From Allacma fusca (taxonomy: Eukaryota; Arthropoda; Collembola; Symphypleona; Sminthuridae), in assembly GCA_947179485.1 (NCBI GenBank), contig OX359249.1:248001-312000 (forward strand): DNA of 64,000 nucleotides, written 5' to 3'. The position numbers and the translations under genes are program-made. Under the pieces are notes generated by a model. It saw only the letters and a list, made by a program, of their open reading frames with translations, was not told where the DNA came from and made no database searches. Shown here piece by piece: positions 1,517 through 48,125 of the stretch (positions are counted from its first letter, which is position 1; every line of letters starts with the position of its first letter).

Positions 1517-2846
1517 CAGTGATGCGATCGAACCGATTATTTCAAAACTCGATGTTGGTTCGTATTCGAATTCGGATTACCGATTCGAAGTATGTCTTCA
1601 AATCGAAGTTGGTTTTACAAAACCAAATCGAATAAATCAAGAATTCGAACAATTTATTCGAATCAAATATCAAAACTAGGTATCGATTGTTATTTCTTTC
1701 GAGTTATTCGGTTCGAAGTTGGTATCGAATCGGTTTTTTCGATTAATCGGTTAAGTATATCCATTCCTCAATTTATTTAGATAACAAAGTCTAAGATTTA
1801 ACAATTCTTGAAAATGATTTCGTAGCGACGAAGTGTTCTTTCGGCCCGAACTGTCGCGTCAATTGTCTGATACAATTGACTAAGAACTAATTGCTTTTGG
1901 GTTTTTATTTCTTAAACGAATCATAAAGTTGCTCGTGGTCCCGGATGACAATTTAACAAAGCTTGATCTATGTATATAAAAGTATTACCTACCATTAAAC
2001 GTTAGACACCTTGAGAATACTATGGAGGAGGTTAGGGCTTCTTTCGGGACTTGACGTCCCGAGGTTTTCAGGACGGGACCGGGATCGGCACAGTTTCGGG
2101 ACAAAATCTTTGTCCCCATTTTATTTCGGGACTGAATGGCGACGAACGTTTTTGTCCCGAGGATTTCGGGACTGAACAGAATTGTCGACCGGACAAAAAA
2201 TTGTCCCAGTAGAAGCCCTACTGGAGGGTTACAGTATAAGTATGTCTATTAAGTAATTTCAAAATATTTAGGAAGCTTATTTGCATTAAAATCTTACTTG
2301 AAGTATTTGCAATGATGTAAATTTTCTTTTAACGTAAAATGATTCTGGGCAACGGATAGGTTTTTTTCGGCGTTGCGGAGTATTCTCACAGCTTTCAGCG
2401 TCACTGGTGACAATATCAATGATATTTGCTTCCATGTATGTAATTTTAAATTTACGAAAATTAATTTTCAAGACGTTCAAAGTGTTGAGGTTGAGACTCT
2501 ACTTCCTCACTACATTCCTCATCAGCCAACGGTTACTCTCCTCGTGGTAAAAATACCGTGGGGTGTATAATTCGTTTATGGAATTTAAACTGTGGCGGGA
2601 ATTTGATTGTTCGAAAAACCAATTTCGAATACAAAGCGATTAAAAACAGAATCGGTATCGAAATTGGATTTTTAGTTTAACTAATCGGTTCGAACTTTAA
2701 TCGGTTTGATAAACCAACTTCGATTGTTCATTCCATTCGAATTATGTTCGGATTAACGCAACCGAACCGATAGCTCTTGGCTAATCGATTCGGTTCGTAT
2801 TCGAAATCGAACATTTCGATTATAATCGTAATCGGTCGCATCACTG
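1517..2846. mobile_element. hAT-like element with TTCGAATCGG word arrays; TSD GTTGAGAA
   Basis: The termini are CAGTGATGCGATCG at 1517 and CGGTCGCATCACTG ending at 2846, inverted. A perfect 8-bp duplication GTTGAGAA lies at 1509-1516 and 2847-2854. Both ends (1517-1780 and 2590-2835) are filled with variants of CGATTCGAA/TTCGAATCGG. There is no transposase. It carries a nested second element (2033-2220). It is the oldest layer at this site. Confidence 0.92.
2033..2220. mobile_element. GGGAC-word hAT-like element, 188 bp, nested
   Basis: The ends are TAGGGCTTCT and AGAAGCCCTA, inverted. The interior is made almost entirely of CGGGACxxxx and TTGTCCCG words. Flanking octamers match only partly (GAGGAGGT and CTGGAGGG, 5 of 8). 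It sits inside the element at 1517-2846, so it inserted later. Confidence 0.75.
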
Positions 2847-2854
2847 GTTGAGAA

Positions 2855-3975
2855 TTGAGACATTTTGATGAACTTTATAACCATCATGCCCGTACGTTGG
2901 AAACTTCTGTTATACTCTAACGTTTTTAGCCTTACAACCTACAGTACGTGTATTTTTTACTGTGTAGCTTTTAGGAAAAACGATTTAGAAAGTATAAATA
3001 AATAAACACGGAACAGGAATTATTATAACAAAATTGAAGTGGAGAAAAGGATTCACCGACGTTTTGTTTATAATGTAGTATTTTGTCACTAATTACATAA
3101 AGAGAAATACGTGCATGTTACTTCATTAGCCACAATGAATAAAATGTACACATAAGAGTTCTGGTGAGTAGGCTGGCTAATTGTAAGTTATTTTGTGTTA
3201 TTGGTAGTTGATTATCAGAAGGCGGACATTTGTAAAGAGATTCATGAGTTATATGTAGACAGATCTATTGAGGTGAGAAATTGAGTGGAAAGGGCCGTAT
3301 AAATTAAGAAGTGAAAAGTCGAGTCGAGAATCCCAAACAAAAACTGCAAATCGGGTATATCTGTGTACACAAGTGCATTTACGTATGAATCGGGTGCCAT
3401 AAAACGCTTCTCCCATAAGCCTATAAACAATCAAAGGGGAAATATATTTGACTTCCCTAATTTTTTGCAGTTTTTTTTAAAAGATTTTCTAAAATTAGTT
3501 CTATACTTGTAGCTCGAAACCATACAGCGGTCAAGAAAATAAAACAAAAACTTTGTTTTGCTATTTTGCTCACAAGTTTTGAAATCATTTAAAAGAAAAC
3601 GCTTGATGTCCTCATCTATCATAACATTTCCACGTTTATTAGCCTAGGGACCTGTTTGGTAATTGAAAGTCCGTGAAATTTTACGAATACAACAGAGGGT
3701 ATTTTACTTTTGAAAATTCAATAAAGAACTAAACCTTTAAAAGCATTCTTTTGGATAAAATACCGTGACAAAATTTGAGCAGCAAACGGGGAATATTTGG
3801 AAATGTGATATTTATTTTACCTCTACTCCTATGCCTATGAGGCAAATGTTTTACAATTTGTAAATATTTAGTGTATGTGGGGCATACTAAAAGACGTAAT
3901 ACTATGTAGTAATTCAATTTACTTTAAAGATCTTCACCTATTCCATTCTACTTTTTGTTTTTAAACACTTCTATG
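2855..3975. other. Unassigned intergenic DNA
   Basis: No gene, inverted termini or tandem array was recognised here. Open frames are short and AT-driven. Confidence 0.5.
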
Positions 3976-3978
3976 GGC

Positions 3979-4373
3979 AGTCGTTTGACGGATCTGCATG
4001 CATACAAGTTAATTTTATTTCTAATCGAAAACGCTTCTAGCTAGTCAAAATTACACATTAAGGTGTCATACATTATTACATACATATAACGCACTATTAC
4101 ATTTAAAAAAAAATCTGGATAAAGTACCCAGGTACGAGTACGGGTACGACACTGAGATACCCGAGTATGGGTACAATTTTCGAGTATTTTTCGGGTACGG
4201 GTACAATGCGAGTACAGGTACATGGTTTGAAATTACATTGCAGGTACATGTACGAAAAATGTGTACCCGGATACTCGGGTAGGGGTATGGATATCGATGC
4301 CAGATATTACAATACCCGCACTTCGGGTACGGATACGGGTACGGGTACCGAAATGTTAGTCAAACGATACTTA
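3979..4373. mobile_element. GTACCCG-word element, ends uncertain
   Basis: A dense array of GGGTACGGGTAC-type words lies at 4125-4352. Possible inverted ends are CAGTCGTTTGAC at 3979 and GTCAAACGATACTT near 4359-4372. No 8-bp duplication fits these ends, so the boundaries are provisional. Confidence 0.5.
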
Positions 4374-4375
4374 GC

Positions 4376-4740
4376 TCTTTTGGACTGAGCGAAAACACAG
4401 GGAGTGGAGTGAGAGTGGGACTGGTATGTATGAAAACTGTTGGGACTGAGACGGAGTGGGACTGTCGGATTGAAATGACTCAAGTGCAGGGACTGACCAC
4501 TGATTCGCCTACAATTACAATATTAAGCAATTTTAAATTTTAGCACCATATATTAAGGCCCAAGGATGGAAATTAGCGCCATTTTGTATCCTTGGGGACT
4601 GAGTGGGAGTTTGACGCAAGACTTTCATTGGGACTGACCTGAGCTAGACTCACACTGTCACTGTGGATAGCATAGGACTGCGTGGACTAAGTCTTCTACA
4701 GCGCTTCTTTCTGGGACTGATTGGGAGTGGGAGTTGGGAT
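4376..4740. repeat. GGGACTGAG-word array, left half
   Basis: Degenerate repeats of GGGACTGAG/GGGAGTG run up to the left duplication of the next element. They resume with inverse-oriented ACTCA/AGTCC words after 5548. The element at 4741-5547 therefore landed inside an older element of this word family. Confidence 0.6.
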
Positions 4741-5547
4741 CAGAGCTTCTGCCGGGGACGGGACGTCGGGACACTCGACGGACCGGGACGGGAGGGAGGG
4801 ACGGGACGGGGACAAAAAAAATGTCCCCATTATACCAGGGACGGGACGGCGACAAAACAAATTGTCCCCACTATATTCGGGACGGGACGGGGACAAAAAC
4901 AATTGTCCCTATTATATTCGGGACGGGACATGCTTTTTGGTTGTGTGTATAACGGGACGGGACGAGCAAGCATAGCAGAACAAGGATAACGTTTCAGCTT
5001 TAATGCTCATGAGTAAACTATTCTGTGAACACTATTTCACCGAATGTAAGACATTCGATTTTAGGTTGTAGAAAATGAGGCTTGCTGCTCAAAAAGTTAA
5101 GGAAGAATCTTGGAGCCACGATTCTATAAATGTGTTTTTTATGTTTTTGGTACAAATATTTTTTGTACGAAGTTTTCCTCATGTTCCGATTTTCGGTATG
5201 AGAATGTCGACAACTGTTTTCAGTAATTATCGGGACGGTACAGGAATTTTGTTCACATGCCACGATTTTCGGGACCGGGAACAATATTTTTGTTAAATTT
5301 TGGGGGCGGGACCGGGGACAACGTTTTTTAAAAATTTTGGGGACGGGACGGGGACAAGATTTTTGTCCCCATGTCCCGACTTTCGGGACGGGACCGGGGA
5401 CAACGTTTTTATAATTTTTTGGGGACGGGACGGGGACATAGTTTTTGTCACCGTGTCCCGATTGTCGGGACGGGACTGGGGACAAATGTTTTGAAAAAAT
5501 ATCGGGACGGGGACGGGACAAGAATTTTGTCCCCAACAGAAGCTCTG
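4741..5547. mobile_element. GGGACGGGGACA-word hAT-like element; TSD GTTGGGA(T/G)
   Basis: The ends are CAGAGCTTCTG (4741) and CAGAAGCTCTG (to 5547), perfectly inverted. The flanking octamers are GTTGGGAT and GTTGGGAG (7 of 8). The left arm (4755-4960) and right arm (5230-5535) are packed with CGGGACGGGGACA and TTGTCCCC words. The interior of about 250 bp is unrelated. Long open frames here are a by-product of the repeats. Confidence 0.9.
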
Positions 5548-5971: not shown

Positions 5972-6100
5972 CAGGGGTGGGTTTACGGGGAGGCCCACCC
6001 TGGCCCAGCCAGGGTAAAAAATTGTACGATGTGTAAAGGTCCACAGATCTATTTTGAGGGTTAGGGCCAGGGTAAAAATTCTTTTATTAATCCACCCCTG
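5972..6100. mobile_element. 129-bp hAT-like MITE; TSD ATTATCCT
   Basis: The ends are CAGGGGTGGGTTTA and TTAATCCACCCCTG. A perfect 8-bp duplication ATTATCCT lies at 5964-5971 and 6101-6108. The interior has GGCCCACCCTGG and AGGGCCAGGGTAAAAA. A second copy lies at 44401-44568. Confidence 0.93.
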
Positions 6101-6744: not shown

Positions 6745-7912
6745 CAGTGGTCGGACTTTGACTCATCAATACAATACTGTATCGCTATTTTTGTACAGTT
6801 GCCTTTTCCTGTGCTGTGCTTTAGTGTAGTCTGGATATGATAATTGTTTCAATACAATGCTTTACTGTTAAAAGCACATCGGAATATTTGTCAATACTCT
6901 GCTGTACTCTAACTAGTTTTGCAAAAAAAGCCATCAACACACTTCTGTACTATACTAGTTGTACAAAAATAGTTATCAATACTGTACTTGACCCATAGCT
7001 GTAAGTATATATTTCTCAATATGGTATTATTGACCAGCAACATTCGACTAATATTCTGCAGTAGAAGCTGTTTTTGGATGAATGCAATGAAATATTTAAT
7101 ATTTTGGTGGTACATGAAAGTACATGTTAACGTAATAAAACGCTTAATTTAGTTATTAGGAAAACCGAGTCTTAAGACAAGTAAACATGCACATCGCTTG
7201 ACGTTGCTTTCGAACACATTAATGACTAACCCTTTGATGGTATTTAGCTTTGAAAATTCGATGTAAAGGAAAATAGCTCCTTGTACACTTTGGGGAGTTT
7301 CACAGATGCTCCATCAACTCTGTTTTCATTTTCTTTTAAAGTATACCTTTGATCTTCATGATCAGATGTATTTATTTTTATTTGTATTATCTTGTTTTAT
7401 AATGTGGTCCTTAGTTTGACGTTTCCTAATATTTGCAGAATTATCAAGTACTTTTTTAATAGATTTGCCTCCATTTCTTGGGAAGTTATAGGTTAAAACT
7501 TATTTATGGCTGAATATTCTGTACGGAGTGTCTCAGACTCTTTCAGAATTACAGCAATAATCACAAATATTGTCCGCTTGTCATGCTGCTTTCGATTGTC
7601 GTTTTAATGTCGTATGCTAATTGTCTGACATAAGTTGTTCGCCAGTAAATTTACTAGATGGGGTCCTTTGCATGTATCAATAATTTGCTGTACTTTATAT
7701 GATTTTGTATTATTTACATCAATACGTTCCTTTGCTTTACTTGTTTTTATGGCTACAGCGGCTTTTCAATACTGTGCCAATAGTTCATGTTATGAATAGG
7801 TGTAGATACTGTACTCTGCTTTATTTACGAAACATAATGATCATACGTTGCTGTAACAATGCTGTACTTTTATCAATACTGTACTTAAAAGTACAGTACA
7901 GTCCGACCATTG
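6745..7912. mobile_element. hAT-like element with CAATACTGTACT word arrays; TSD GGAGGGAG
   Basis: The left end is CAGTGGTCGGACT and the right end is AGTCCGACCATTG. A perfect 8-bp duplication GGAGGGAG lies at 6737-6744 and 7913-7920. The arms (6765-7010 and 7670-7900) repeat CAATACTGTACT/AGTACAGTA words. The interior of about 650 bp has no recognised coding sequence. Confidence 0.9.
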
Positions 7913-7955: not shown

Positions 7956-8827
7956 TAGGGTTGGTCATATCGTTACCTTTCGAAATATCGTTAATATCGT
8001 TATCGTTCACAAAAATAATCCCGATAACGATATGGTAGAACGATAAAAACGATATACAATATAAATTGAAATAATAATGAAATTAAGCAGTAAACGTATT
8101 CAATAAGTATTTAATTTATTAAAAGTTACATAAGCAATGTAAATAAGCCGAAATAATGCCTCATTTTCACTTATTCATTTTTCCAAATATCTGTTTAACC
8201 ATTCCTTCTAGTGCTCGGGCTAATCCAATTCTGAATTGGAAATTTTCGGTTCAGTTCAATTCAATTCACTAATTTTTCGATTTAGTTCAAGATGAAACTG
8301 AATCGATTGATTCAGTTCATAACATTGAATTAAATTGAATCGTTTTCCTTGAAAGTTCAAACGATTCATTCTGCCCCAAAAATTTAAGCAACAGATTTAC
8401 CGTTTACAAGCTGTCCAGATCCTAAAAGTAACGATCTGTACCCTTAGTTTAACTTCCTTGTGTTGTGTGCTTGGAAAATACTGCTTTCGTGTCTAGAAAG
8501 CGTATTCTTTAAGTTTACATGCGAAAACCGTTGTTTTCGATTCAGTTAAATTCAAAAATTTGAACTGAAATGAAATGAATTAATTTTTACTGAACTGAAT
8601 TGAACGGTTTTGACCACTCCTTCCGGTTCAGATGACACTTTCTAGGGCATGAAATACGTCAGATGGTCACAGTATGCAATTTTTGACTATTTTACCTTCT
8701 TAGAACGATATTAAAGTAGCCCGATATATCGTGTGAAATATACGAGAATTATCGTAGCATATCGTTCCTCCAAATCGGACGATATTAACGATAATATCGT
8801 ATCGTTATATCGGTATGACCAACCCTA
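7956..8827. mobile_element. hAT-like element with CGATATCGTT word arrays; TSD ATACCAAG
   Basis: The ends are TAGGGTTGGTCAT and ATGACCAACCCTA, perfectly inverted. A perfect 8-bp duplication ATACCAAG lies at 7948-7955 and 8828-8835. The arms (7968-8055 and 8700-8815) consist of ATATCGTTATCGTT words in both orientations. A GAACTGAA-word element (8209-8615) is nested inside. Confidence 0.95.
8209..8615. mobile_element. GAACTGAA-word hAT-like element, nested
   Basis: It starts TAGTGCTCGGGC. Near-matching octamers ATTCCTTC (8201-8208) and ACTCCTTC (8616-8623) flank it. The right terminus (TTTTGACCACT) is eroded and may extend to 8618. The interior repeats GGTTCAGTTCAATTCA and GAACTGAAATGAA words. 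The start resembles the elements at 38713 and 42159. Confidence 0.75.
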
Positions 8828-11090: not shown

Positions 11091-11990
11091 ATATAATTTA
11101 TCACGCTCATGAAAATAATATTGCACACATAGTTACAGTTACATCATCATTGACGTTTTCTTTCGGACGTTGATGATTTCCCGTGAAGTAAAAATATCTG
11201 AGACTGCAACGGTGTTTACATTATTTGTATTAATCAATAATTATTTCAGTTTAGTAAACATATGTTTAGTCTGCATCTTTTAACTGTACAAATATACAAG
11301 CCCCAATAATTAAGCGGGGATTTTGTTATCTATGTTAACATTGAACTTACAATTAGCGTTACAGTTGTTAATTTTAGTTTTTGCTCTAACTTTACAGTAT
11401 TTCCATATTTATTGCCCTTTGATTCAATTGTAAGTTAATCCCTCCACAATGGCATCCTCTCTTCTAATTTGTCTTTAATAATTAATTACTAATAACTATC
11501 AGTATTATTACTTGAGCTTTCGCTCAAAGTTTACTGGGCCTTTATATTCAGTGCTTTATGATTGATTTTCTTATGTTTATGACTCCTGAAAGGCATGAGC
11601 TCAATGACTACGTTACTTTACGTTAAATGTTCAAATACTTACTTGACAGAGCATGCTTCGGGAGCGACTGTCAAAATCAAAAAACTACAATACATTTTTA
11701 TTCGGATTCCTAAATTTCCCCATCAATTCTAGCTTATTCCCAATGTATTTAAAATGTTCCCTTATCCCTATCGCATTAAGTTTTCCCTGTCTTAACGCAT
11801 TAATCCACTCTTATCTCTAACACGACATTCGCTATCAATAAGGCAAAAAGCTGTCCCTATCAAAAGCTCAATAAGCTGTTCGTTTCAATAGCGCAAAAAG
11901 CTCTCCTTGTCAATAGCGTAAAGTTACAATTAGTGCGACAGACGCACGTCTACACGCACCCGCATTTTATAATATTAAAGATAGTGAAAA
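11091..11990. other. Unassigned DNA with loose repeats
   Basis: The stretch 11820-11940 repeats a loose unit of 'caataagctgtcc/caatagcgcaaaaagct'. No gene or element ends were recognised. Confidence 0.4.
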
Positions 11991-12145
11991 CGTAATAACG
12001 GTACAGGTACAGGTTCAAGAAAATTGTGCTCAGATACTCAAGTACGGGGTATGGGTACAGGTTCAAAAAATCCATGTACCCATGATTCAGGTACAGGTTC
12101 AGTACCAGCTACAACATTTTTGTACCCATACGAGGCACTAGTCTG
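11991..12145. repeat. GTACCCG-word fragment
   Basis: An array of GGTACAGGTTCA and GTACCCAT words. It ends near 12141 with CGAGGCACTA, a plausible right terminus (inverse TAGTGCCTCG). No duplication was found. Confidence 0.5.
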
Positions 12146-12314
12146 ACGATTACATCATAACATTTATAACATACGTTATACATATATTATATTAAAACAG
12201 ATGTGGTAGCGTAGTAGTAATCATGAAATTAGTGCAATTACTTTGATTAGTCCTTAGTTACCTACATATTTAGTTCGTTTACTCATAAACTTCTGGAGCT
12301 ATCAATAAGATTAA

Positions 12315-16300: not shown

Positions 16301-18818
16301 TTATGGATTTGCCCACTCTACACATAACGTTGACCGAATATTTTAAAAGGAAACAAACACTGAACCGATAAGATGCAAACGTATTGATAGCGTTTTTTCA
16401 TTTGATTTTCATATTAAGTTGATTTACCATTTTGTTGGTAAACCTTACTCGACACGTTTACCTCCTAAGCCCAAAGTATTAAACACAGGAGTCTTATACA
16501 GACTGTGATGGTTTGTGAAGACTTGTAACTTTACTACGTACGAACATGTATTTTTCTTAATTTTGAAAGAGTAAACAATCTCAAACTTTCAAAATTTCAC
16601 TTTTTCCAAACATACAATCCTGTCCTCCACCTTCTTGACTTTGGACTCAGTAGTGTTCTCTGACTTCGCACGGGATAGAAGGCGTACTAAAAGAGGTTAC
16701 AAATTTTAACGCAAGGAGACCAGGAAGAATCCTTATGGAATGTACTCTCACAATCAGTCGCATCAGACTAAGACCACTGTCAAAATAGGTCCAACGTCTC
16801 ATTGTCAGAACCTTTAAGGCATGAGGGCAGTGGTGTCAGCCAGAGCGTAGATTGACATTGACATTAGGCATGAGCACATCGAGACAGCAAATCGAGATTC
16901 TCGATATTCTCGATCTTTTTTTACCATCGAGACTAATCGAGACATCTCGATAATTTATCGAGAATCTTGTTAATTTTTCGTTTCGATAAAATGCGCATAC
17001 GCGTCAAAAAAGCGGATACTCTGTATAAGAATGCTGAACTCATAGAGTCTGAACAATGGTGGAAAAATTTTTACTGAATTCAGATGTTAACTCTTCAATG
17101 AAAAAAATATTGCTGCAGTGAATTTACGGTGGAGAAAATTAATTTCATATCACATCCAAGAGGACCAGGAGAAAATTATATCGAGAGAACTACATTAATA
17201 TTATAGTTTTAAATAAGTTGTGGTTTTAATGAATACGGGGACTTGCAAAATTAACCACAATGTACATTTTTGTCCCCTTATTCAATAATTTTGGGCTGTC
17301 TCGATTGTCTCGATATGAATGTGTTCTCGATGTCTCGATTTATAAAATTCTAGATCTCGATATTTTGTTCTAAAACAAGAACAAGACTATCGAGAATTTT
17401 AAATGATTCGAGACACTCATGCCTAATTGACATATTAGTATTAGTGAGAACTTCCGTCTTACTAGCACTGGCCTTATTTCATACTGGGTTTCGGACTGAC
17501 TTGAGAACCGCGTTAACAGTGAGGTTGGATCCAGAAGGAGTGATTGAGGCTTTCGCGTACTAACGCTTCAAGACTACGAGTACTGAGGAATTTTAGCACA
17601 GTGAAGTACTTACGGCTTGTAGTGTAGTCGTTCCACTAAAGCAACTTTGGAGACCAGCATAATTATTTGCTATTTAATTCGGAAAATGATCCTGGGTTTA
17701 AAATTTACACCCTGAAAAAGAGACTGAGTTAGCGGATTTGATTGAGACGCCGGAAGGGTATTAAAAAGGTCTAAATCTCAAAGTCATTTCCAGCTTGTGA
17801 AAACATAGGGAAGTTAGGGCTAAAGTTAGTGCATAAAAGCCCAATAGTTTACGGATTGAGATGAACCACATGTAACGGTGATTCTTACAGGGATATTAGC
17901 CCATGATACACTCACGAATTATGAACAAAACCGCGGACTGGATTTACAATCTCAGTTAATACAACTTCGTATGGATTTACTGATACACATATATCTACTT
18001 AGTTACTGCTTTGACCATTGCCGTGAATTAGGGATGCCAATGGTCTGGTCCAGACCATTTTTAATGGTCCGTTATTGGTCTGGTCCGGTCTGGTCCAACA
18101 CTTGGACCAGACCACATGCAATTGGTCCAGTATCAGGACCAGACCAGACCAGACCAAAGGACCATGGTCCTAACCTTTCGCAAAATGACATGGATTCACA
18201 AAATCCCATGTAATGTTTAAAATTGTCATTTTTAGTGATAAAAACATTTCGCTTAATAAAACTTGATTATTTAATTACTATTAATGGTATTCTGGACCAT
18301 GGTCTTTGGTCTGGTCTGGTCCGAAAAACTGGACCAGACCAATAGTCTGGTCTTACCTTTGGACCAGACCAGTTTCATAAATCATGGATCAGACCAGACC
18401 ATTGGCATCACTACCGTGAATGTGACATTTAACCGTTGGTATTTCGGAAAGTGGAAGCATTTGACATAAATACGTTTGAGATTGTTAATGTGAGCTAAAA
18501 CTAGTTTTGAAAATGTAAATGTGAAATGCAGTATTTTGACTGTACCTCTGATGTCCAATGAATCGTCGCTTGAGAAGGAATCTGAATCAACTCCAACATT
18601 ATCCCCTAAATACGGTCTCTGTTTGAGAATATTTTCACAGAATCCTGCAAAGAGAAAAAATGAACTAAAAAGTGTAAGATTCAGTGTGACTTAGGACACT
18701 TACTAGGTAAGTACATATTTGATATTAAGGAGAATGCTCACATACCCGAATCATCTTCTAAGGTAAATGCCGTTCTGATTAGACGGCACATCCACTTCTT
18801 GTCATCATAGAGGACCAT
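13307..18818 (-). CDS. Sin1: Sin1 (MAPKAP1), TORC2 subunit, 7 coding exons
   Basis: Sin1 is a core subunit of TOR complex 2. It presents Akt and other AGC kinases to the complex and binds Ras and membrane. Minus-strand coding exons by GT-AG splicing: 18818-18746, 18644-18546, 15207-14994, 14783-14538, 14402-13962, 13773-13673, 13563-13307. Phases match at every junction and give 476 aa (human about 520). Seen: an N-terminus like the family's, with LEDDSG then FCENIL; the RSRSNTAIRLERL block (exon 3); a CRIM region about residues 158-246 with ASAKISDLIGL and the hallmark ADEDGEWDTDFPPLD; a Ras-binding-like region about 260-340 ending EFCLVRDG; and a C-terminal PH region about 370-470. The first ATG is chosen because it aligns with the family start. 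The 3.3-kb second intron holds two hAT-like elements. The stop codon TAA lies inside an AATAAA. Identification is from recalled family sequence; the boundaries of exon 2 are the least certain. Confidence 0.9.
16440..17830. repeat. Diverged dispersed repeat in Sin1 intron 2, interrupted
   Basis: Sequence on both sides of the hAT-like element (16640-16860 and 17434-17800) is related to 34560-34890. Shared text includes CACTGGCC, CAGxAGGAGxGATTG, ATTTACACCCTxxA and GGTCTAAATCTC in the same order. The family is loosely rich in GGACTGA/AGACTAAG words. Confidence 0.5.
16865..17425. mobile_element. hAT-like element with TCTCGAT word arrays; TSD ATTGACAT
   Basis: The ends are TAGGCATGAG and CTCATGCCTA, perfectly inverted. 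A perfect 8-bp duplication ATTGACAT lies at 16857-16864 and 17426-17433. The arms repeat ATCGAGA/TCTCGATATTC words (16885-16985 and 17295-17415). It lies in Sin1 intron 2. There is no coding capacity. Confidence 0.95.
18029..18413. mobile_element. hAT-like element with GGTCTGGTCC word arrays; TSD CCGTGAAT
   Basis: The left end is TAGGGATGCCAATGGTC; the right end, read inward, is TAGTGATGCCAATGGTC. A perfect 8-bp duplication CCGTGAAT lies at 18021-18028 and 18414-18421. Most of the element is GGTCTGGTCCAGACC in both orientations around a short AT-rich core. It lies in Sin1 intron 2, close to exon 2. Confidence 0.96.
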
Positions 18819-20099: not shown

Positions 20100-20832
20100 T
20101 CACTGGGATAGGACAGTATAACTATACATAAGTACTGTAGTAGCTGGGTTGTCCGTGCTAATCTGTTCTCTCGTGTCTTCTATTCACAGAGTTTGTTGTC
20201 AACGAGGAACGGGAAGGACGCGTCGCCGATAAGTCCACAATCCACAATCCACAATCATTGAGCCAAGTTCTTCCCCATTGTCTCGCACTGTCCTCACTGT
20301 ACTCACTGTCCTCTTTGAGGCTGCTTCACTTTTATTCCTGACGACGTGTAATTATAGTGCAATAGTGGAATTGTGGAATCCCTGTGGAAACGTGAGGAAA
20401 AGACTAGATTTTTCCAACATTTGTTTCCCTGCAGATTTTGCGTTGATCTGGAAGCGATCTCATCAATCTCATCAATCTTTTACCACAACCGGCGAGCAAG
20501 TCTAAGTAAAATGTAACCGTAACCTTTGACTTTGTTAATTCTTCGCTCCTCATCTAACACTTTTTACATTCTGCAGCACATCTTCCCACTTCCAACGTCC
20601 AACCCTCTCAGTCCGGACCTCTTAGTCGGATCTCATAATCAGCACCAGACTCACTACGAATTCCAGTCGGGAAAATTCAAGAGTAGGAATCAAGAGAGGA
20701 TTCGTCCGATCATCTGCTTCTGCTACAAAAGGAAACTCTTGTCGTCTTGTCATACAGGAGTTCATTTCTTCAGGACCAATAGTTTGGAGCGCGTGTGAGT
20801 TAAGCTCTTGTCAAACAAAGTTGTTGAAAGAG
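20100..20832 (+). promoter_or_regulatory. SRSF1 upstream region / probable 5' UTR
   Basis: The stretch before the SRSF1 ATG is pyrimidine-rich, with reiterated CACTGTCCTCACTGT-like runs at about 20283-20312. It contains a possible 5' UTR intron with donor GTAAAA near 20506 and acceptor TTCTGCAG near 20577 (about 70 bp). No TATA box was recognised. The promoter role is inferred only from position between two divergent genes. Confidence 0.35.
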
Positions 20833-28230: not shown

Positions 28231-28508
28231 ATATGTAAAGCTGAAGTTGACAAGTCCAAGATAGATTCCACATCCAATGCAAAAGGGGAAATTGACAAGA
28301 TCAAGGCAAATGACAATACCAGTGGCTTTGTCAAATCAAATGGGAGCGGGCGAGGCGGTCATAACTCCAGAGGGACATTCAGGGGCAAATCTAATGCCAA
28401 CACAGGAAACAAGTCAAATGCAAAAGGCAGTGACAAGTGTTTTTTATGCGACAAAGCAGGGCATATTGCCCGATTTTGCCCGGATAAAAAGAAAGTGCTG
28501 TCGATAAT
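28231..28508 (+). pseudogene. Gag nucleocapsid remnant with CCHC zinc knuckle, shifted frame
   Basis: In the frame one base off the preceding Gag ORF, the sequence stays open and encodes lysine/serine/asparagine-rich text. A CCHC knuckle of the CX2CX4HX4C type (CFLCDKAGHIARFC) lies at 28438-28479. This is the usual C-terminal part of Gag. After about 28508 the sequence no longer resembles gag. A single indel near 28205-28227 would explain the split. Confidence 0.65.
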
Positions 28509-28739
28509 TAAGATGATGAATTCGCTGAGCAGAGCGGTACATAAGCTAGCTGTACTACAGCAAGGTACCTGGCTTCCTTTAAAGCCACGAGTGGTATGGG
28601 CTACTCCATCTGTAAAGGCGGCTGGGTTTTTTGACACCCATAATTCAAGGCTGAATACGAGCCCATCTGTAACCTCAACGCTGGCTTCTGTCTCCTGTTC
28701 TTCGGCTCCGATTTCTACCTCCAATTAATCACCTGTTGT

Positions 28740-30047
28740 TTGGACTACATTACAATGTGTGCCTCCCCGAAAGTTTGTGGAGTGTGTCAATTAAAGCCAC
28801 GAAAAAATGTGCTTTTGCTTTATTGTTGTAATTGTCTATGTTTGTTTCATAGAAAATGTCTTAATGTGAGTCTGTCAGTTTACAGAAGTATTGATGTGGA
28901 TCTTTGGCTTTGTAGTGTGTGTGTGAATAAGGATTCTAGCCTGTTTAATAGCAGTATTATAAATCCAGAATTTATGATAGAAACAAGTATAGAGGTTCCG
29001 TGTACGACATTGAAGGTACATACTCTTAATCAAAAAATTGTTCATATGTTATATCTGAATATTAACTGTTTCTCCATTCATAAAGTGGAAGAGCTAAAAT
29101 TGATTATGAGTGATCAGACTATTGACATTGCCGCATTGGTAGAGACATTTTTCGATGAAAACACAAATCTAAATCTTTACAGTATAACAGGATATAACAC
29201 AGTATTTAAGAATCGAAGTGGCAATAAGAAAGGAGGAGGAATATTACTGTACTTGCATAAAAGAGTCCGATATAATGTTATTGATATGAATGTAGAACGT
29301 TTTAACTCAGGCGTTGAACTCCTTGCCTGTAAAGTGGGCTTGACAGAGTTTCAAACAATTGTCCTTATTACCATTTACAGACCTCCGTCAGGATCAATAG
29401 AAAAGTTTCTCATGTTCTTGAGCAATTTACTTGAAAAGATAGCTGAGATTAAATATACATGCATAATTACAGGCGACATTAATGTAGATTTATCCAACTC
29501 CACACTTGAAACGGTCAAACTTTTAACATGCCTTAGTATGTATGATTATAAGCAAATAATAAATGTACAAACTAGACGGACTTGTGGAAAGCGTATGTCA
29601 AGTTCACTAATAGATCATTTATATGTACCCAATGCATTGTGCTTAGACTGTAGCATTCATACTACAGGTTTGTCTGACCATGATTATGTACGTCTAAATT
29701 ATAGCTTTAAAAAGACCACGGCACATGTTGTAAAAGAGATAGTTACCCGTGATCTTAAAAATATGAATGGGAATTTATTTAATGCTGAATTATGTAAACT
29801 CGGCTGGGACTTTCTGTTAAATGGTAAATATGACGTCGATTTTGTTTACAATGTGATATCCACGACAGTGAGGGTGCTCATTGAAGACTTTGTTGAAACA
29901 AAACGAAAGCGTGTAAGGTCTAACACAAAGTCTTGGGTAACTAATGATATACGTTTGCTGATTAAAGATAGGGATAGGGCAAAGAAATACGCCTGTATGT
30001 ATGGCTGCACGGACATGTGGAGTAAATACAGTAAAACCTGTATATAA
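28740..30047 (+). CDS. LINE ORF2, N-terminal part: PHD finger plus AP-type endonuclease
   Basis: 435 aa. A PHD-type finger lies at residues 13-61 (Cys 13, 16, 29/30, 32, His 37, Cys 40, 58, 61). It is followed by an endonuclease/exonuclease/phosphatase domain from about residue 100 with LNINC, VETFFDE, TGDINVD and the SDHDYV signature. This is the layout of CR1/L2-like non-LTR elements, in which the endonuclease nicks the target for reverse transcription. The RT domain is missing: the frame runs into the terminal repeat of a Tigger-like element at 30029 and stops seven codons later. The 5' UTR probably starts between 28508 and 28740. Inferred dead copy. Confidence 0.85.
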   Translation: MDYITMCASPKVCGVCQLKPRKNVLLLYCCNCLCLFHRKCLNVSLSVYRSIDVDLWLCSVCVNKDSSLFNSSIINPEFMIETSIEVPCTTLKVHTLNQKIVHMLYLNINCFSIHKVEELKLIMSDQTIDIAALVETFFDENTNLNLYSITGYNTVFKNRSGNKKGGGILLYLHKRVRYNVIDMNVERFNSGVELLACKVGLTEFQTIVLITIYRPPSGSIEKFLMFLSNLLEKIAEIKYTCIITGDINVDLSNSTLETVKLLTCLSMYDYKQIINVQTRRTCGKRMSSSLIDHLYVPNALCLDCSIHTTGLSDHDYVRLNYSFKKTTAHVVKEIVTRDLKNMNGNLFNAELCKLGWDFLLNGKYDVDFVYNVISTTVRVLIEDFVETKRKRVRSNTKSWVTNDIRLLIKDRDRAKKYACMYGCTDMWSKYSKTCI

Positions 30048-31495: not shown

Positions 31496-31695
31496 NNNNN
31501 NNNNNNNNNNNNNNNNNNNNNNNNNNNNNNNNNNNNNNNNNNNNNNNNNNNNNNNNNNNNNNNNNNNNNNNNNNNNNNNNNNNNNNNNNNNNNNNNNNNN
31601 NNNNNNNNNNNNNNNNNNNNNNNNNNNNNNNNNNNNNNNNNNNNNNNNNNNNNNNNNNNNNNNNNNNNNNNNNNNNNNNNNNNNNNNNNNNNNNN
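31496..31695. other. Assembly gap, 200 N
   Basis: Exactly 200 N. Both flanks are repetitive, so the true size is unknown. Confidence 1.
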
Positions 31696-31885: not shown

Positions 31886-32733
31886 GCTTCAGCATATACA
31901 ATTCTAAAAGCGGTTGTACGTATTTTAATAAAAATATTCGCACTGATTCAAAAAATTATTAAATACAGCGTTTCATAAATCCGTTTTGTAAAAATGAGTA
32001 CATTGCCATTTTGTCTCAATATTCAAAAACATTTTTATGAACTTACTGTAATATTACTATAAATATGTATTATTGCATTTTTTCAGGCAAAACGTATTAA
32101 TAGGTGTTATTTTTCTTCCCATTGACACTATGTTCAGAGAGTGCACCGTATTTTGAGCTTGAGGTGACCCACAGCGTGACCTATGTCACGCAGGCCTCAA
32201 ACTTTGATCCGATTGAATTCTCTTGGCCTGTGGGCTTGTCCTGACCGTTTTTGGATAAAATCCAGGTCGTGCGTGATTTCGGCGGAAGGAAGCTCATAGA
32301 GTTATACAATATTATTTCTTGAGCGTTTTTAGAAAGTGAAACTTTCTTATGCACGAGTGTATTCCGTCCGTCCGTCACTACAAAATCTTGTGGTAGCCAT
32401 ATCTTTACAACGAATTGACATACGGACATGTGACTTTTACCAAAATATCGGCCATAAAATCTAGTTGTGCCTTCTGATAACTTCGGCGACAGGTTATCAA
32501 CCGTTTGACCTCAGAAAATTATTTTCTGAATAAAAAATCTTGCATTTGCTATATCTTTCCAATGGATTGACGTCCGGACATTCTACCTTTAGCGAAAAAA
32601 TCCAAATCTATTTCCCTACCTTATTATAAATCTTTTAATACAAGTTTCCCTTTCCTGCACATGCAAACAAAGTTTGCCCAAATCAGTGCAGTGCAGGGAT
32701 TTTTATTTCCCGATTTATGAAGCTGATTTACCA
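31886..32733. other. Unassigned DNA
   Basis: No gene or element ends were recognised. Text such as 'ttgcatttgctatatctttccaatggattgacgtccgga' repeats loosely at 32370-32430 and 32540-32590, suggesting a retroelement tail. Confidence 0.4.
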
Positions 32734-32741
32734 TTTTGTGG

Positions 32742-34439
32742 CAGTACTCGGACTGGGTACAGAAACCGTGTACCCGTACCCGAATATCGGGTACTACAAA
32801 ATGCTGTACCTATACCCGTAACCATACCCGGGTAAATTATTTCAGTACCCGTACCCGTACCTGAAAATACAATGTAGTACCTGTACCCAAAATTTACCCG
32901 TACACGTAATGTACCCAAAACCTGTACCCGTACCCGAGTATCTATTTTGTGTACCCGGGTATTACTCGGGTACTGGAAGTTTGGCCGATTTAAAATCCCC
33001 GACGACATTAGCCTGCCCAGCTGAAAAATTTTAAGTTGTCAATTTTTTGACCTCCATTAAAAGTGTCCGGGATTTTGGAAATTTTCCCTAGGCGTTAAAG
33101 ACATCCTATTTGAATTTTTGGAAAAAATTATTTAAGGCATTTTGGGATTTTTTTAATAAACACTGACGAAATTCAAATCCTACTACCCCAAAATAATAAC
33201 TTGCTGAATGAAATGAAATGTGTTCTCGCTTACTGGAATTGGGACGGATTCTTTAATACTAAACTCTCCATAACTTGCTTTTCAACTTGGAGAACAAGAA
33301 ACAATTTTTTTCCGGCTAATCGAACTCTGTGTATAGAAAATGTTTTACGAAAACATTGAGTTGATCATAATTTTTCCAAGTCAAATATTGCTTTTCAGGA
33401 AATAAATGCGGGAGGCAACATTGAATATTCATTTTATATTACAGCTTTATAAAAAAACATTCGTAAACTGTCTCTCACATTTATGAAGCCCGAGACGGAG
33501 ATTTTCGAAAAATGCAGGCAAAATAGGACTAAAATGCAACCCCATGGAAGTTTTGAACGCCAAGTTCAGATGTCTGTCAAGTTCTTTTAACATCAAAATT
33601 ATCAAGATTAATCAAAGGGACTGAAATATAAATATTGCGTGCAAGGAATGATATTTTTCATTCTAAAATGATATAAATATTCACCTCAATAAATACTCAA
33701 AGTGTCATAAATACCCAGAATTGAAAATGCTCAAATTGCCTGCATAAAATGCCTTGGCGTTTTCCAATGGACAACCCTGGGTACTTGTAACGTTAAGAAA
33801 TGGATCTGCTAATAAATGTATATTTATTCCGATCTTATCTCGTAATACGTCTTCAAATAATTGTAATGTTACGCTCCCAATGAAGCTAATTAAATTGAAT
33901 CCCAAGAACTTCCCTCTTGAAATTCTTCGTTGATGAGCTTCACTATTTAAGTCGATAAACAGATGATTTCACTGATTCTACGCTCTATTTCTTTATTAGA
34001 TTCCTTGGATGAATTATTAGAAGCGTTAGATTGCAACTACCAAGTAATCATAAATGAGACGAAGCCACTTGGCTCTGTCACTAACGCAAGTATCTGTATA
34101 CTACGAAATAAGCAACTCCACGGTTGGTAGGTCTTATTGTTAGCCATAGTAATCCATTCCATCAACAATCCTTGAAGTACCCAAAAATACTCGGGTACAG
34201 CACCCACGGGTACAGGCATTTTACATAGTGATACCCGTACCCATTGGGTACTACCCGATTGCCGCTGAGTGAGTACCCATACCCGTACCCGTACCTGTAC
34301 CCTGTTTATTGCCTAAAATCAAGAGTACGTGGGTAGTACCCACGTACTTGCGAGTACGCATCTTCTGTACCCGGGTAGTACCCATACCTGTACCCGTACC
34401 CATTTACCCGAGTATTACCCGTACCCATTCCGAGCACTG
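32742..34439. mobile_element. GTACCCG-word hAT-like element, 1.7 kb; TSD TTTGTGG(G)
   Basis: The left end is CAGTACTCGGACTGGG; the right end is CATTCCGAGCACTG. TTTGTGG precedes the left end and TTTGTGGG follows the right end. The arms 32750-32975 and 34180-34430 are GTACCCGTACCC words in both orientations. The unrelated interior (32980-34170) has no recognised ORF. The 8-bp duplication is short by one base on the left. Confidence 0.82.
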
Positions 34440-34539
34440 TTTGTGGGCTAACCTGACTTGACACGTGCCTGAATTAGCCAACGGAGGAGGCTTACAATTT
34501 CTAAAAACAATCCTGAATTCACCAAATTTTTTGACGGGG

Positions 34540-38110: not shown

Positions 38111-38712
38111 AGGGGTCGGACCCAGTGGTCGTCATCAGGGTGCCCAGACTATTCGATTCGCAAATCAGGACTTCTAAGTAAGATTTTAAACAATCAAAAA
38201 CCAAATACGTTTCAAGAAATTTAACTATTTGTATTTGGCTTGCATATGCCAAAAACTTCATAAACATTTAGCAAAGTATCCTAATGCAAGAGATTTTTAT
38301 TTATTTCTTGCATCTAAATTTATAAAAAATTAACATTCCTGCGAGGTATTATTTCATTTATGAAAGCTTCAAATAAAAATGGAGCTAGAACATTCTGAAC
38401 TAAAGCTGCAACGCTGGTTTTTCCCAAAGTTAATGAAACCGATTTTAGAATATGTACATGTTTGTCTCACTACAAAACTGGAAAGACAATCCAAACTTCT
38501 GAAAGATTGGAGATGCTTTACTCCATGATACATTAGGGCTAATTCGACATATTTCATTCACTCGTGCACTTGGTCACAATATTTCCTTTCCTACTACACA
38601 TTGTAAAAACAGCTATTCTTAGGATTACGAAAATTTAATTAAGACAATTTTTACCGTACTTAACAACCAGAAGACAAATCTTCCAACTACACTTTTAACA
38701 TGGAACCATACG

Positions 38713-39015
38713 TAGTGCTCGGACAAATACAATTCTGAATTGGAAATTTTTGGTTCAATTCAATTCACTACTTTTTCGATTCAATTATTAAAGATGAAAT
38801 TGAACCGATTGTTTCGAAGTTCAAAACTATCATTATGCCCTATATACATTTCTATAGAAACCATTGGTTTTTGATTCAGGTCAATTTGGTTCAAAATATG
38901 ACCAACTGAAATGGTTTTTACTGAACTGAATCGAAAATTTAGTTTCAATTCAGTTCAGCATGTGAATTTAACTGAATTGAAAAACCTGATCGGAACTGAA
39001 CCGTTCCCAACACTG
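38713..39015. mobile_element. GAACTGAA-word hAT-like element, nested
   Basis: It starts TAGTGCTCGGAC and ends GTTCCCAACACTG (inverse CAGTGTTGGGAAC). The interior is TTCAATTCAGTT/GAACTGAATCG words. No clear duplication; the copy is eroded. Confidence 0.7.
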
Positions 39016-39037
39016 CATGTACCTGTGAGATATCTTA

Positions 39038-39374
39038 CTGTCGGGGCATTTGGAAATGACACTTGGCCAATTAAGGACAGGTGTGTTACGCACGTCTCTC
39101 TGGCCTCCGATAGGCTGATTATTTTTCAAGATTTTCAGCGCGAAATAAAAGCTTGTATGCAGATGCAATGTAAATCTCTTGCACGGATTTACAAATTGAA
39201 ACTCGATGGTTGACTCACTCATATTACCGATAAAGAGTCAATCTATGGTTGACAAGTAATCGATGGTTGACTGTCACTCTATGGTAGCAAGCACAAGCCT
39301 ATCGGAGGCAAGAGAGGTGTGCGTAACACACCTGTCCTTAATTGGCCAAGTGTCATTTCCAAATGCCCCGACAG
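39038..39374. mobile_element. TA-flanked foldback MITE, 337 bp
   Basis: Inverted arms of about 79 bp (39038-39116 and 39296-39374) start CTGTCGGGGCATTTGG and agree at nearly every base over the outer 56. TA flanks both sides (39036-39037, 39375-39376). The loop of about 180 bp has repeated 'atggttgac' text. Probably a Tc1/mariner-type MITE. Confidence 0.88.
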
Positions 39375-39707
39375 TAAACTGTTATTGGTAATTGTAAGTC
39401 AGCAGTGTCAGCACTAGAGAACTCTTTCGTACAACAGCAGTGTCAATCATTGCGATATTAAGCCGTTCAAAATTAAACCATTAAAACCATTTTACACAGG
39501 GCAGGATTTAGGTTCATATGTATACAGTTTATGTTATTGTTATAATGGACTTCATGATAAGTAATGACCAACTTTAGTCACTTTACCCCAAACTGCTCCA
39601 AAGTGATATTTTTCCTAGCTACTTTGAAATCAGGACTAAATTCAAGCTCATCAGGTCATCAGGTGACCCTACGTCAAATCAGGACTTGTGGGCACCCTGG
39701 TCGTCAT

Positions 39708-42158: not shown

Positions 42159-42871
42159 TAGTACTCGGACCAGTTCAGTTCAAAACCGAAAAATTCCGAT
42201 TCGGTTCAGTTCAGTTCAGTTTGATTCATTATAATTCAGTTCAGTTCAGCTGTTGAACTGAACTGAACAGTTCGATTCGGTATTTGAATCGAACTGAACC
42301 ATATAATGCAAACTGCAGTTCAGTCGGTTTGCAAGCGGGTTCCTTGCTGGAAACGTGCACAAACGTACATTCTTATCTTTCATTCTCATATATAGTTATT
42401 TAACGAATAATGAACAGTTTATTAACTACTTTATTATTATAAAAAAATCGTTTAATAATTCCATGGGACATTGCTGCTGCTGTACCAAGCTTGGGGCTCA
42501 AGAAGTTGCATTTCGCATTACTTTCTTTAGAACTTCAACAGCTACTTAAAATTCTGGCTTGATTACGGAGCTAAAAAAATTAAAATTGAGACGAATTAGG
42601 TTACTCGGAAAAAGAAATCAGTTTTTTCTGGGATTGACTCGGACGACTAAATTTGGAGCTCTATGTGTGTACATCCGCAATTGTTATTGTTTACCAAACA
42701 CTGCAACTGAACAGTTTGATTCACCGATTCAGTTCAGTTCATCGGGTGAAACTGAACTGAACTGAACTGTTTTTGCTTGAACTCAACCGAAACCAAATTT
42801 TCGTTTCAGTTCACTGCTCAAACTGAACTGAACTGCAAATTTTGAATCGAACTGAACTGTTCCGAGTACTA
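42159..42871. mobile_element. GAACTGAA-word hAT-like element, 713 bp; TSD ATCCGAAA
   Basis: The left end is TAGTACTCGGACCAGTTC; the right end is CTGTTCCGAGTACTA. A perfect 8-bp duplication ATCCGAAA lies at 42151-42158 and 42872-42879. The arms (42175-42330 and 42705-42860) are CAGTTCAGTTC/GAACTGAACTG words. The interior has no transposase. Confidence 0.95.
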
Positions 42872-43636: not shown

Positions 43637-44179
43637 TAGACATGTCAACTACGGTATTATAGTACGGTAATACCGTAATTACCGTAAAAAATTGAGGTAC
43701 GGTTTAGCTACGATAATTCTCGGTTTTTTGAAGCGATATCGTAACTCCATACGATATCGTCAGTCTAGCGGAAGGCTCATAAAATTGTGTTTTTTCCCTC
43801 TACAAGTCATGTCCAGAGCTAAAGCAACAATATTATACCCTAACCCAAGTCAAAGTGATATTTTTGTTGATAAAAATATGCGTACGGTACGTGCTGAATA
43901 AATACATACTACACTTTATTAAGTGTACGAACGTACGTACAAGCCCTGACATGCTACGATGATGACCTGACGACTGACGCTAAACTGATAGTTGAACAAT
44001 TCTGTTGAATTTTTACTACATCTATTTACACGCATAACATAAAAATCGACTTTTATTCACGGTTTCCCCAAAATCGGATTAATTTACGATATCGTACCTT
44101 AAAATTATTACCGGAGTTTTTCCACTTTACGGTAACGGTAATTACGGTATTTTAAACAAGAACGGTATGAACATCTCTA
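43637..44179. mobile_element. hAT-like element with TACGGTAAT word arrays; TSD ATTGAGAG
   Basis: The left end is TAGACATGTCAACTACGG; the right end, read inward, is TAGAGATGTTCATACCG. A perfect 8-bp duplication ATTGAGAG lies at 43629-43636 and 44180-44187. The arms carry TACGGTAATACCGTAATTACCG words. The interior is non-coding. Confidence 0.93.
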
Positions 44180-44400: not shown

Positions 44401-44568
44401 CAGGGGTTGATTTACGGGGTGGCCCACCCTGTCCCTAAAAAAATTTAGGACCAGGGTAAAAAAAATGTTGACTAAGGCCCTCAGATTGCAGATATCGTGT
44501 GTAAAGGCCCACAAATCTATTTTGAGTGTTAGGGCCAGGGTAAAAATTATTTTATTAATCCACCCCTG
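44401..44568. mobile_element. 168-bp hAT-like MITE, second copy; TSD GGAACATT
   Basis: Ends CAGGGGTTGATTTA and TTAATCCACCCCTG. A perfect 8-bp duplication GGAACATT lies at 44393-44400 and 44569-44576. Same family as 5972-6100, with about 40 extra internal bases. Confidence 0.94.
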
Positions 44569-46810: not shown

Positions 46811-46814
46811 GTTT

Positions 46815-47230
46815 AGTAGTAGTCACGTTTGAGACGCTTTTTTAAAATATTTGACACTGAGTTGTAGGAAACATTAGCTTTCAATAGAGCTAATCAATAA
46901 GACTACTTGAGAATTGTGGTCATGTCGTTTAAGAACAGATGGAATGGTTCGAGAAATTAATCTTTCTTATAATCTTCTTCTTCCTTATAAGGGATGGAGA
47001 GTGACAATATTTTATGAGACACCCTGTACACATGTAAGTACATAGGTTGCCCGAAAGTTTTTCTTTAATTAATTTTAAAAAAATTCGACAGTTTGTGAAC
47101 GCTGCCAAGTTCCTGAATACAAATATGCTACTACTACGTGTACATACATATGGGCTTACTGCCCTATCCTATTCTACCTCGACTGCTACCATATGATTCA
47201 AAATACCATTGCACAATTAGCATTTACCAA
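46815..47230. repeat. Dispersed repeat, copy B
   Basis: It joins counterparts of 41580-41760 and 44188-44392 in one continuous stretch. In copy A the same two blocks are separated by about 2.4 kb that includes two hAT-like insertions. Confidence 0.55.
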
Positions 47231-47341
47231 GGTTACAATCAAACGTTTTAGTGAATGATTGCGCGCATTACCAGTGCTATTCCAGTTAAATTTAAATCTG
47301 TCCTTGGATGTTCTAACTAAATTCTGTACAGAGGATCGTTC

Positions 47342-48125
47342 GGCTGAGTTTTACTTTCCCGGCCACAAAATGACCTTCCACCTTCCACTCACCCATATAT
47401 TAACACTGTAATACATAAGTAATTCCACCAGACTTTCCATCTAACCTTCCACCTTCCCTTTTATCATTCCACCTTCCCTTCCACGTGACAACCCAAATTA
47501 CCCATACGGACTCTGTAGTCTGGTTTTGACAATATTTACAAAGAGCTAACTAAAACAATACTATATTGCCCCCCTACATGAGTTACTGCATGGTCGAAGC
47601 TCATTTCTTTTGTGCCCATTCATTTGAAAATGACAGTCTAAGATCAATTTCGGTGTGTTAACTTATGTTTCGCATTTTTTATTCGTAAAATTAACACGGA
47701 GCTCAGTTGCCGTACTTACTGGTGAACTGATTTTAACAAAATTTTTAAAGCATTTTTAGCAAATTCCGTAATCACTAACGATTAATGCAAAACGCAAACT
47801 TTTTAGCGTTTCGACTTACTTTTCCGAATAAATTAAAACGCTGATTTATGGTTTGAATAGTCGCATACAGGGGGCAAATCATTAACTATCTCCAGTTCGC
47901 ACTTTGTGTTTTACCCACCAGAACACAGAGGGATACGTTAATTAACACCGGGAACCAGGTAGAAGGACCTTCCATCAGGTCAAATTTAGGTGAAAGATTT
48001 GTAAAATTTTGGTGGAATGTCAAGCGGAAGGTCAAGTGGAAGGTCAAGTGGAAGGTCTAGTGGAAGGTGGAAATCCTGGTGGAAGGTGGAATGTAATTTT
48101 GTGGCCGGGAAAGTAGAACTCAGCC
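47342..48125. mobile_element. Element with CCTTCCA word arrays; TSD GATCGTTC
   Basis: The ends are GGCTGAGTTTTAC and GTAGAACTCAGCC, and the inverted match extends through CTTTCCCGGCCACAAAAT on both sides. A perfect 8-bp duplication GATCGTTC lies at 47334-47341 and 48126-48133. The left arm has CCTTCCACCTTCC words; the right arm has the complement GGTGGAAGG. The terminal base differs from the CAG/TAG elements, so the superfamily is unsure (hAT, P-like or Merlin-like). The interior is non-coding. Confidence 0.88.

Follow-up and report, generated by a model that had tools for sequence, protein, structure and literature searches.

The 64-kb window analysed here (the whole stretch, positions 248,001 to 312,000 of Allacma fusca contig OX359249.1, forward strand) belongs to a genome of 392.7 Mb in 91 contigs and holds twelve transposable elements, most of them hAT-like, with a summed length of about 9.0 kb (Table 1). 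In most of these elements the arms just inside the ends are filled with a short word that differs between families. The window elements are labelled F1-F12, while L numbers denote loci fetched elsewhere in the genome (10 kb each for the first 20 loci with a hAT domain). Eleven of the elements had been named in a sequence-only reading of the window by their 8-bp target-site duplications (TSDs), and all eleven duplications proved real: each 8-mer is present as a pair with inverted termini directly inside it. The framing of the F3 element was corrected, since GGAGGGAG occurs 5 times and the true pair lies at 6737/7913. The eleven elements represent ten families, F2 and F10 being one family. F12 had been overlooked. 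The window copies of F4, F5, F6 and F8 all (4/4) have an 8-bp TSD, and F1, F3, F9, F12, F2/F10 and F7 combine an 8-bp TSD (imperfect in F12) with a short terminal inverted repeat (TIR) starting with CA or TA. The consensus of hAT TIRs is YARNG; the TIRs of F4 (TAGGG) and F6 (TAGKG) fit it, and those of F5 (TAGGC) and F8 (TAGTA) differ at the fifth base.

Table 1. Transposable elements and other features of the 64-kb window (ORF, open reading frame; LINE, long interspersed nuclear element; word p, 7-mer test)
Feature	Position	TSD	TIR	Word	Remark
F1	1517..2846	GTTGAGAA	CAGTGATGCGAYCGA	ATTCGAA/AACCGATT	
F12	4741..5547	GTTGGGAT/GTTGGGAG (7/8)	CAGAGCTTCTG	CGGGAC	added here
F2	5972..6100	ATTATCCT	CAGGGGTGG		129 bp; no clear word array (word p 0.09)
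F3	6745..7912	GGAGGGAG	CARTGGTCGGAC	AGTACAG/CAATACTG	
F4	7956..8827	ATACCAAG	TAGGGTTGGTCATA	AACGATAT	
F5	16865..17425	ATTGACAT	TAGGCATGAG	ATCGAGA	
F6	18029..18413	CCGTGAAT	TAGKGATGCCAATGGTC	GACCAGACC	
F7	38136..39699	GTCGTCAT	CAGGGTGCCCA		wordless arms (word p 0.72; arm cosine 0.04)
F8	42159..42871	ATCCGAAA	TAGTACTCGGAMCAGTTC	CAGTTCAGTTC	
F9	43637..44179	ATTGAGAG	TAGASATGT (9/12)	TACCGTAA and CGATATCG	
F10	44401..44568	GGAACATT			second F2-family copy (word p 0.20)
F11	47342..48125	GATCGTTC	over 30 bp, starting GGCTGAGTTYTACTTTCCCGGCC	ACCTTCCAC	
Word islands	551-750, 4101-4450, 11951-12150, 32651-33050, 34101-34500			CGGGTA/GGGTAC	no assigned ends
SRSF1-like splicing factor	20626-22547 (+)				exons (by eye, ORFs)
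LINE-type retrotransposon	27390-30044				Gag-like ORF, then endonuclease ORF with PHD-like finger (by eye)
Assembly gap	31496-31695				200 N
SLC6-like transporter	49013-54851 (-)				exons (by eye, ORFs)
Tandem array	50460-50640				10-bp unit AACTATTGAG, 18 copies
Tandem array	63390-63965				25-bp unit, 23 copies

A strict scan of the window (perfect 8-bp repeat and an inverted match of at least 10/12, 80-2500 bp apart) resulted in 12 pairs, compared with 0.5 on average in ten Markov-shuffled sequences; ten of the pairs corresponded to previously named elements and two were located inside F7. F9 fell below the strict cut-off because of its TIR and was recovered by a laxer scan (TSD at least 7/8, TIR at least 9/12, ends YA, arms considered similar at a cosine of at least 0.3), which also detected F12 with an arm cosine of 0.86. 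The laxer scan gave 17 pairs, 9 of them with similar arms, in the true register and 8-16 pairs in five shifted registers, with similar arms in 1, 0, 3, 0 and 0 cases, respectively. In L021 a relative of F12, with the 8-bp TSD CTTGCTGC, is inserted into a hAT gene, and the gene of L022 runs on unbroken at the corresponding point, representing the empty site.

The word content of the outer arms was determined by comparing the commonest 7-mer with dinucleotide shuffles. The top 7-mer was enriched (p<=0.01) in 8 of the 11 elements (F1, F3, F4, F5, F6, F8, F9, F11), in accordance with the claim that most arms are saturated with one word, and no enrichment was detected by this test in F2, F10 and F7. 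The words were further claimed to be near-palindromic and to stand in both orientations. The latter was observed in 25 of 27 elements, the exceptions being F9, in which the counted word is self-complementary, and L027, with one orientation; the former does not hold for every word. The 5-mer composition of the left and right arms of one element was similar in 29 of 30 cases (cosine 0.40-0.88), the exception being F7. Between different elements the median cosine was -0.01 and the 95th percentile 0.23, and for 28 of the 30 the nearest right arm came from the element's own family or word group. The 30 elements comprised window families and autonomous-type copies, omitting F2, F10, F12, L054, L055 and L059, and 'same family' merged near-identical copies as well as L013 with the inner element of L014 and L025 with L028.

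Beyond the TIRs the ungapped identity of the left and right arms was only 17-34% in 27 elements, a set that omits among others L010, L024, L048, L049, L055, L059, F2, F7 and F10. The arms as long inverted repeats were therefore rejected. Words that are common to both arms without alignment form the pattern expected from an array of binding sites. The density of words in the interior was 0-1.1 per kb in 17 of the 22 elements with a countable interior. Some arms score as tandem repeats.

Genome-wide matches to seven TIR patterns were counted on the forward+reverse strands, with the reversed pattern as control. Exact matches numbered 450+418 for F6 (control 0+0), 68+64 for F1 (0+0) and 88+84 for F3 (7+4). 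With at most one mismatch, 263+245 matches were obtained for F4 (control 71+50, a sizeable share due to chance), 124+121 for F8 (0+0), 101+104 for F5 (4+2) and 290+283 for F11 (0+0), so that each pattern had 132-868 matches. Copies outside the window had been expected to carry 8-bp duplications, and perfect duplications in register were found in 24 of 28 copies examined (F4 7/9, F11 2/3, F6 4/5, F8 5/5, F5 3/3, F1 3/3); these copies had all been selected for converging TIRs, a choice biased towards intact ones. Close neighbours among the first 100 F6 TIR places formed 28 convergent, 0 same-strand and 1 divergent pairs. The word arrays were also found not to be free-standing in F6, the sole family checked: 19 of 22 palindromic word pairs on contig C1 (0-28.9 Mb) had an exact F6 TIR no more than 400 bp away, and such surroundings make up 0.24% of that DNA. 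On the same contig, five F6 copies lie about 5.75 kb apart (C1:14677396-14700803), which probably reflects a tandem array with an F6 element in each unit.

The same TIRs and words were predicted to surround hAT transposase genes. This was borne out for F4, F5, F6 and F8 and failed for F1 and F11 (one long copy each), giving a hAT partner for 4 of the 6 window families for which a long copy was available. The F6 partner was already among the hAT loci and the F8 partner, L052, was a hAT place adjoining an F8 TIR, whereas the long copies of F4, F5, F1 and F11 and a second one of F8 were selected by wide TIR spacing alone; further wide-spaced pairs of F1 (two, about 3-4 kb), F4, F5, F6, F8 and F11 lie outside this comparison. 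The F6 partner, the outer element of L014, has a length of 7590 bp and the transposase on the opposite strand; in L014:2326-9915 a hAT element with the word CCTTC is nested in it, and the two elements have separate TSDs and TIRs. The F8 partner is 3028 bp long with the perfect TSD CCCCTCAC, and both F5 partners, L054 and L055, have perfect TSDs. The hAT C-terminal dimerisation domain (PF05699, cut-off 21.4 bits) was detected with 26.6 bits in the F4 partner L029, 25.4 in L054, 39.2 in the outer element of L014 and 50.5 in L052. The zf-BED domain of Pfam was above its cut-off of 20.6 bits in F5 (21.6, L054, a single open frame) and in F8 (28.3, two exons joined by hand). The F6 finger gave no Pfam BED match, though it aligns with both cysteines and the histidine conserved, and the F4 finger was obtained from a tblastn alignment to F5 with an internal stop. 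The long F8 copy L053 was rejected as a partner, being an F8 element that carries a LINE-like ORF.

The single long copy examined by eye for F1, L060 (3605 bp, TSD 7/8), contained no hAT gene and had a mariner-like ORF instead. The long copy of F11, L061, likewise had no hAT gene by eye. The TIR of F11 exceeds 30 bp and starts with GG (GGCTGAG; GGCTGAGTT), unlike hAT, and the label of a hAT-like element is not supported for this family. We slightly favour the assignment of F11, and perhaps of others with atypical ends, to another superfamily with duplications of about 8 bp and arrays at the ends; the 8-bp TSDs of the window copy and of two of the three further copies, together with word-filled arms resembling those of the hAT families, speak against it. 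The TIR of F11 is common to copies with different words, ACCTTCCACC in the window and TACCTACCACC in L061, so that one TIR can go with more than one word.

The expectation of several hAT transposases in the genome was confirmed in that many hAT families with different words were found; their DNA-binding specificities would differ accordingly. A search for the hAT dimerisation domain resulted in 860 candidates, and all 150 that were scored exceeded the cut-off. Sixteen of the first 20 loci had ends with TSD and TIR flanking the gene (L025 with a TSD of 7/8), and no end pair was detected by the lax scan in L009, L012, L016 and L018. The ends are the best candidates of that scan, judged by eye, and the words were also assigned by eye (Table 2). 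In the next four loci, both ends were present in L048, a copy of the L023 family, and L049, a copy of the L017 family, one arm in L050 and none in L051. Among four later loci, L059 had both ends and L058 one, the two forming a separate clade, and the ends of L056 and L057, copies of the L011 family, were not found by the scan. About 16 distinct words were counted by eye among the sampled autonomous-type copies, and about a dozen families besides F4, F5, F6 and F8 hold hAT genes between the same TIRs and words. In L012, an element with the word ACTTGA and the TIR CAGTGCTGCG lies next to the transposase (about 2430-3670).

Table 2. Words of transposase-bearing families and their BED residues 66/67/70 (Hermes numbering; where two words are separated by a semicolon, the second is the form used in the comparison with the residues)
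Family or locus	Residues 66/67/70	Word	Remark
L010	A/A/E	GCCTA	
L011	F/N/K	CCTCTAC; GTAGAGG	
L012	S/N/K	GTAGTGG	one arm
L013	K/N/R	CCTTC	
L014 inner	C/N/R	CCTTC	
L015	T/N/N	CCTTGCC	
L017	Y/N/R	TGAGGG	
L019	A/N/K	CGTTAC; GTAACGG	
L020	S/N/R	CAGTTC	
L021	T/N/K	TTTTGTAC	
L022		TTTTGTAC	
L023	G/N/Y	TATCCG	residues via copy L048
L024		TATCCG	
L025	G/N/T	AACGTTAT	
L026	T/N/D	TTTTGTTG	
L027	T/N/R	GACTGACT	
L028	G/N/S	AACGTTAT	
L050	S/N/Y	TATCCG	one arm
L058		AGTAAGTA	one end
L059	S/N/R	AGTAAGTA	one cysteine visible ahead of helix
F4	T/G/N	AACGATAT	
F5	K/G/H	ATCGAGA	
F6	S/A/K	GACCAGACC	
F8	G/S/N	CAGTTC	

The N-terminal fingers of 17 transposases, several joined by hand from two exons, were aligned and keep both cysteines and the histidine. 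The profile of the 17 fingers matched ZBED1 at 3e-7, and the L026 transposase matched the Hermes chain 8edg at 8e-11. In Hermes, the AAGT/AAGC repeats of the ends are contacted by residues S66, N67 and R70 of the BED finger, and H71 is a zinc ligand (PubMed Central, PMC, record PMC10368747). The corresponding residues, numbered back from the zinc histidine, were compared with the words (Table 2). The observed/expected ratio of AGT in the arms was 1.42-3.18 in the four families with S/T-N..R/K residues (L020, L021, L027, L059) and 0.07-1.64 in 15 others (Mann-Whitney p 5e-4, with the grouping made post hoc); L012, L050 and L058 were omitted from this comparison as one-armed. AGT ranked first among the 32 trinucleotides. 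When four families were grouped at random 400 times, some trinucleotide did as well in 7 groups, and AGT in none. Clade-mates are non-independent in this comparison, and F8 (1.64), L011 (1.36) and L026 (1.23) are AGT-rich as well.

In six pairs of families with 52-64% C-terminal identity, the word was kept in three and changed in three, which is not significant by Fisher's test (p 0.10). Both the word and residues 67 and 70 were kept in L013/L014 inner, L023/L050 and L025/L028 (the last with T for S), whereas both the word and residue 70 changed in L010/L015, L021/L026 and F4/F5. The pair L012/L019 (52%), omitted since L012 has one arm, partly contradicts this: residues 67 and 70 are kept and the words differ in their middle part. 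The clearest contrast is that of L021 and L026, with 61% identity, K versus D at residue 70, words ending with AC versus TG and nearly the same TIRs (TAGTGCTGTAAT in L021, TAGTGCTGTAAT/TAATGCTGTAAT in L026). That the words would track the BED residues which contact DNA in Hermes is new and only suggestive; no paper on a BED code read from transposon arms was found in searches confined to open-licence PMC papers. That the arms are a natural record of binding sites, with residues 66, 67 and 70 setting the family word and a BED recognition code readable from one genome, is put forward tentatively and as somewhat less probable than the opposite. If true, a transposase and dozens of its sites would be seen changing together with the TIR fixed, as in TTTTGTAC of L021 and TTTTGTTG of L026. 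In the alignment the ZBED1 finger reads S-N..Y, and ZBED1 binds TGTCGYGAYA (PMC6179265); this site may loosely resemble TATCCGAT of the S/N/Y and G/N/Y families, which is offered as a lead only.

Elements of this sort, hAT transposons with subterminal repeats, are already a known kind. Most of those in the window are very probably non-autonomous, MITE-like (miniature inverted-repeat transposable element) copies, in which the word most likely represents the putative BED site of the family's own transposase. In the proposed mechanism, the short TIRs would be cut and joined, producing the 8-bp duplications, and the arms of 100-250 bp would carry the short word as an array, in most cases with copies in either direction. 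Recognition of the word would most likely fall to the BED zinc finger at the N terminus of the transposase of the same family. A transposase multimer may bind the array cooperatively through several of its BED fingers, and the word may supply family specificity to TIRs that are much alike. We infer that the words are bound by the BED fingers and that the word changes as a result of changes in the BED helix. Cooperative binding of AAACGG repeats is known for the Ac transposase (PMC3260210), Herves binds CRATTCAT (PMC3143072), and the motifs measured for BED domains of hAT origin are diverse, with four hAT proteins whose motifs match their own subterminal regions (PMC8097297). The interpretation of the arms as expanded transposase-binding arrays, given in the sequence-only reading, was supported with the binding itself putative, and both of its checkable predictions held where they were tried.

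Several observations weigh against this interpretation. In the 7-mer test, p<=0.025 was reached by only 11 of 17 partner-type elements, and F2/F10 and F7 have TSDs and TIRs yet no words; the arrays are either dispensable for some elements or have decayed in these. The words are not strictly limited to the outer 250 bp, since the interior density amounted to 8.1 per kb in the window copy of F4, 6.5 in F12, 4.6 in L013, 3.9 in L015 and 1.9 in the inner element of L014. The islands of CGGGTA/GGGTAC in the window have no assigned ends. In the search for F6 word pairs, the reversed pattern scored 107+107 versus 167+167 for the true one, perhaps through matching the same arrays of period 5. In L029, the F4 partner, the transposase is frame-broken and the element is without a TSD. 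Single sequences matched the structures weakly: the L011 exon matched Hermes at 0.02, and the L020 finger matched no BED protein. The word CAGTTC is common to F8 (G-S..N) and L020 (S-N..R) despite their different TIRs and helices.

Instead of being transposase sites, the words could be real and selected for another role, as sites of host transcription factors, promoters, or for nucleosome exclusion or secondary structure. The BED protein ZBED1 is also a host DNA-binding factor (PMC6179265), and the binding of the words by the transposases is itself what we infer. This explanation is nevertheless considered improbable. The words occur at either end of an element and mostly in the two orientations, non-coding copies have retained them, they go with the transposon family, and their layout is that of the binding sites known from hAT elements. 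Still less probable are arrays as neutral by-products, in which slippage or gene conversion would spread a motif near the ends and transposition would copy it. By eye, the period-5 tandem half-sites GACCA of F6, GAACT of F8 and GGATC of L023 look slippage-prone; against this stand the same word in both arms without alignment, the conservation of the word in three pairs whose transposases are 52-64% identical and the AGT content that tracks the BED residues. The explanation that inverted 10-mers merely happen to pair around microsatellites or other DNA of low complexity, to which the tandem-repeat-scoring arms and the word islands without ends might point, has a negligible probability and was rejected on the shuffles (12 versus 0.5 pairs), the F6 word pairs beside TIRs (19/22) and the genome-wide TSDs (24/28), in line with the reversed-TIR controls of 0-11 matches for six of the seven patterns (121 versus 508 for F4) and the empty site of the F12 family.

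Among the remaining features of the window, the ORFs were read by eye as animal genes. Some of the CGGGTA/GGGTAC islands carry termini like CAGTGCTCGG by eye and perhaps belong to a further hAT family.

So far, subterminal repeats were known for single well-studied hAT elements; the value of the present set lies in how many families, differing in their words and linked to their transposases in the same element, one genome contains. This opens to test how BED fingers read DNA and how the specificity of a transposase and of many sites could change jointly, and it would help to explain which transposase mobilises which non-autonomous family. It is also a warning that some stretches of 'simple repeat' are transposon ends. 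In Arabidopsis, SIMPLEHAT and SIMPLEGUY are hAT-type non-autonomous elements rich in simple repeats, mentioned here only as a lead.

The elements resemble Hermes in their short TIRs, the concentration of repeats near the tips, a quasi-palindrome that directly follows the left TIR and an N-terminal BED finger (PMC10368747). In contrast to Hermes, many families are present in one genome, each with another and often longer word, and the arrays are dense enough to fill the arms. As with maize Ac/Ds, autonomous and non-autonomous copies exist side by side, some alike only in TIR and repeats, with multiple cooperative sites. The Ac/Ds family has a single kind of repeat, AAACGG, in subterminal regions of about 200 bp (PMC3260210), whereas about 16 words were assigned by eye in the autonomous-type copies sampled from A. 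fusca. The CGGBP/hAT-19 domains are likewise BED-type and of hAT origin, with diverse measured motifs, which for four hAT proteins match their own subterminal regions (PMC8097297). These domains are mostly domesticated, whereas in A. fusca the word and the transposase are found together in the element.

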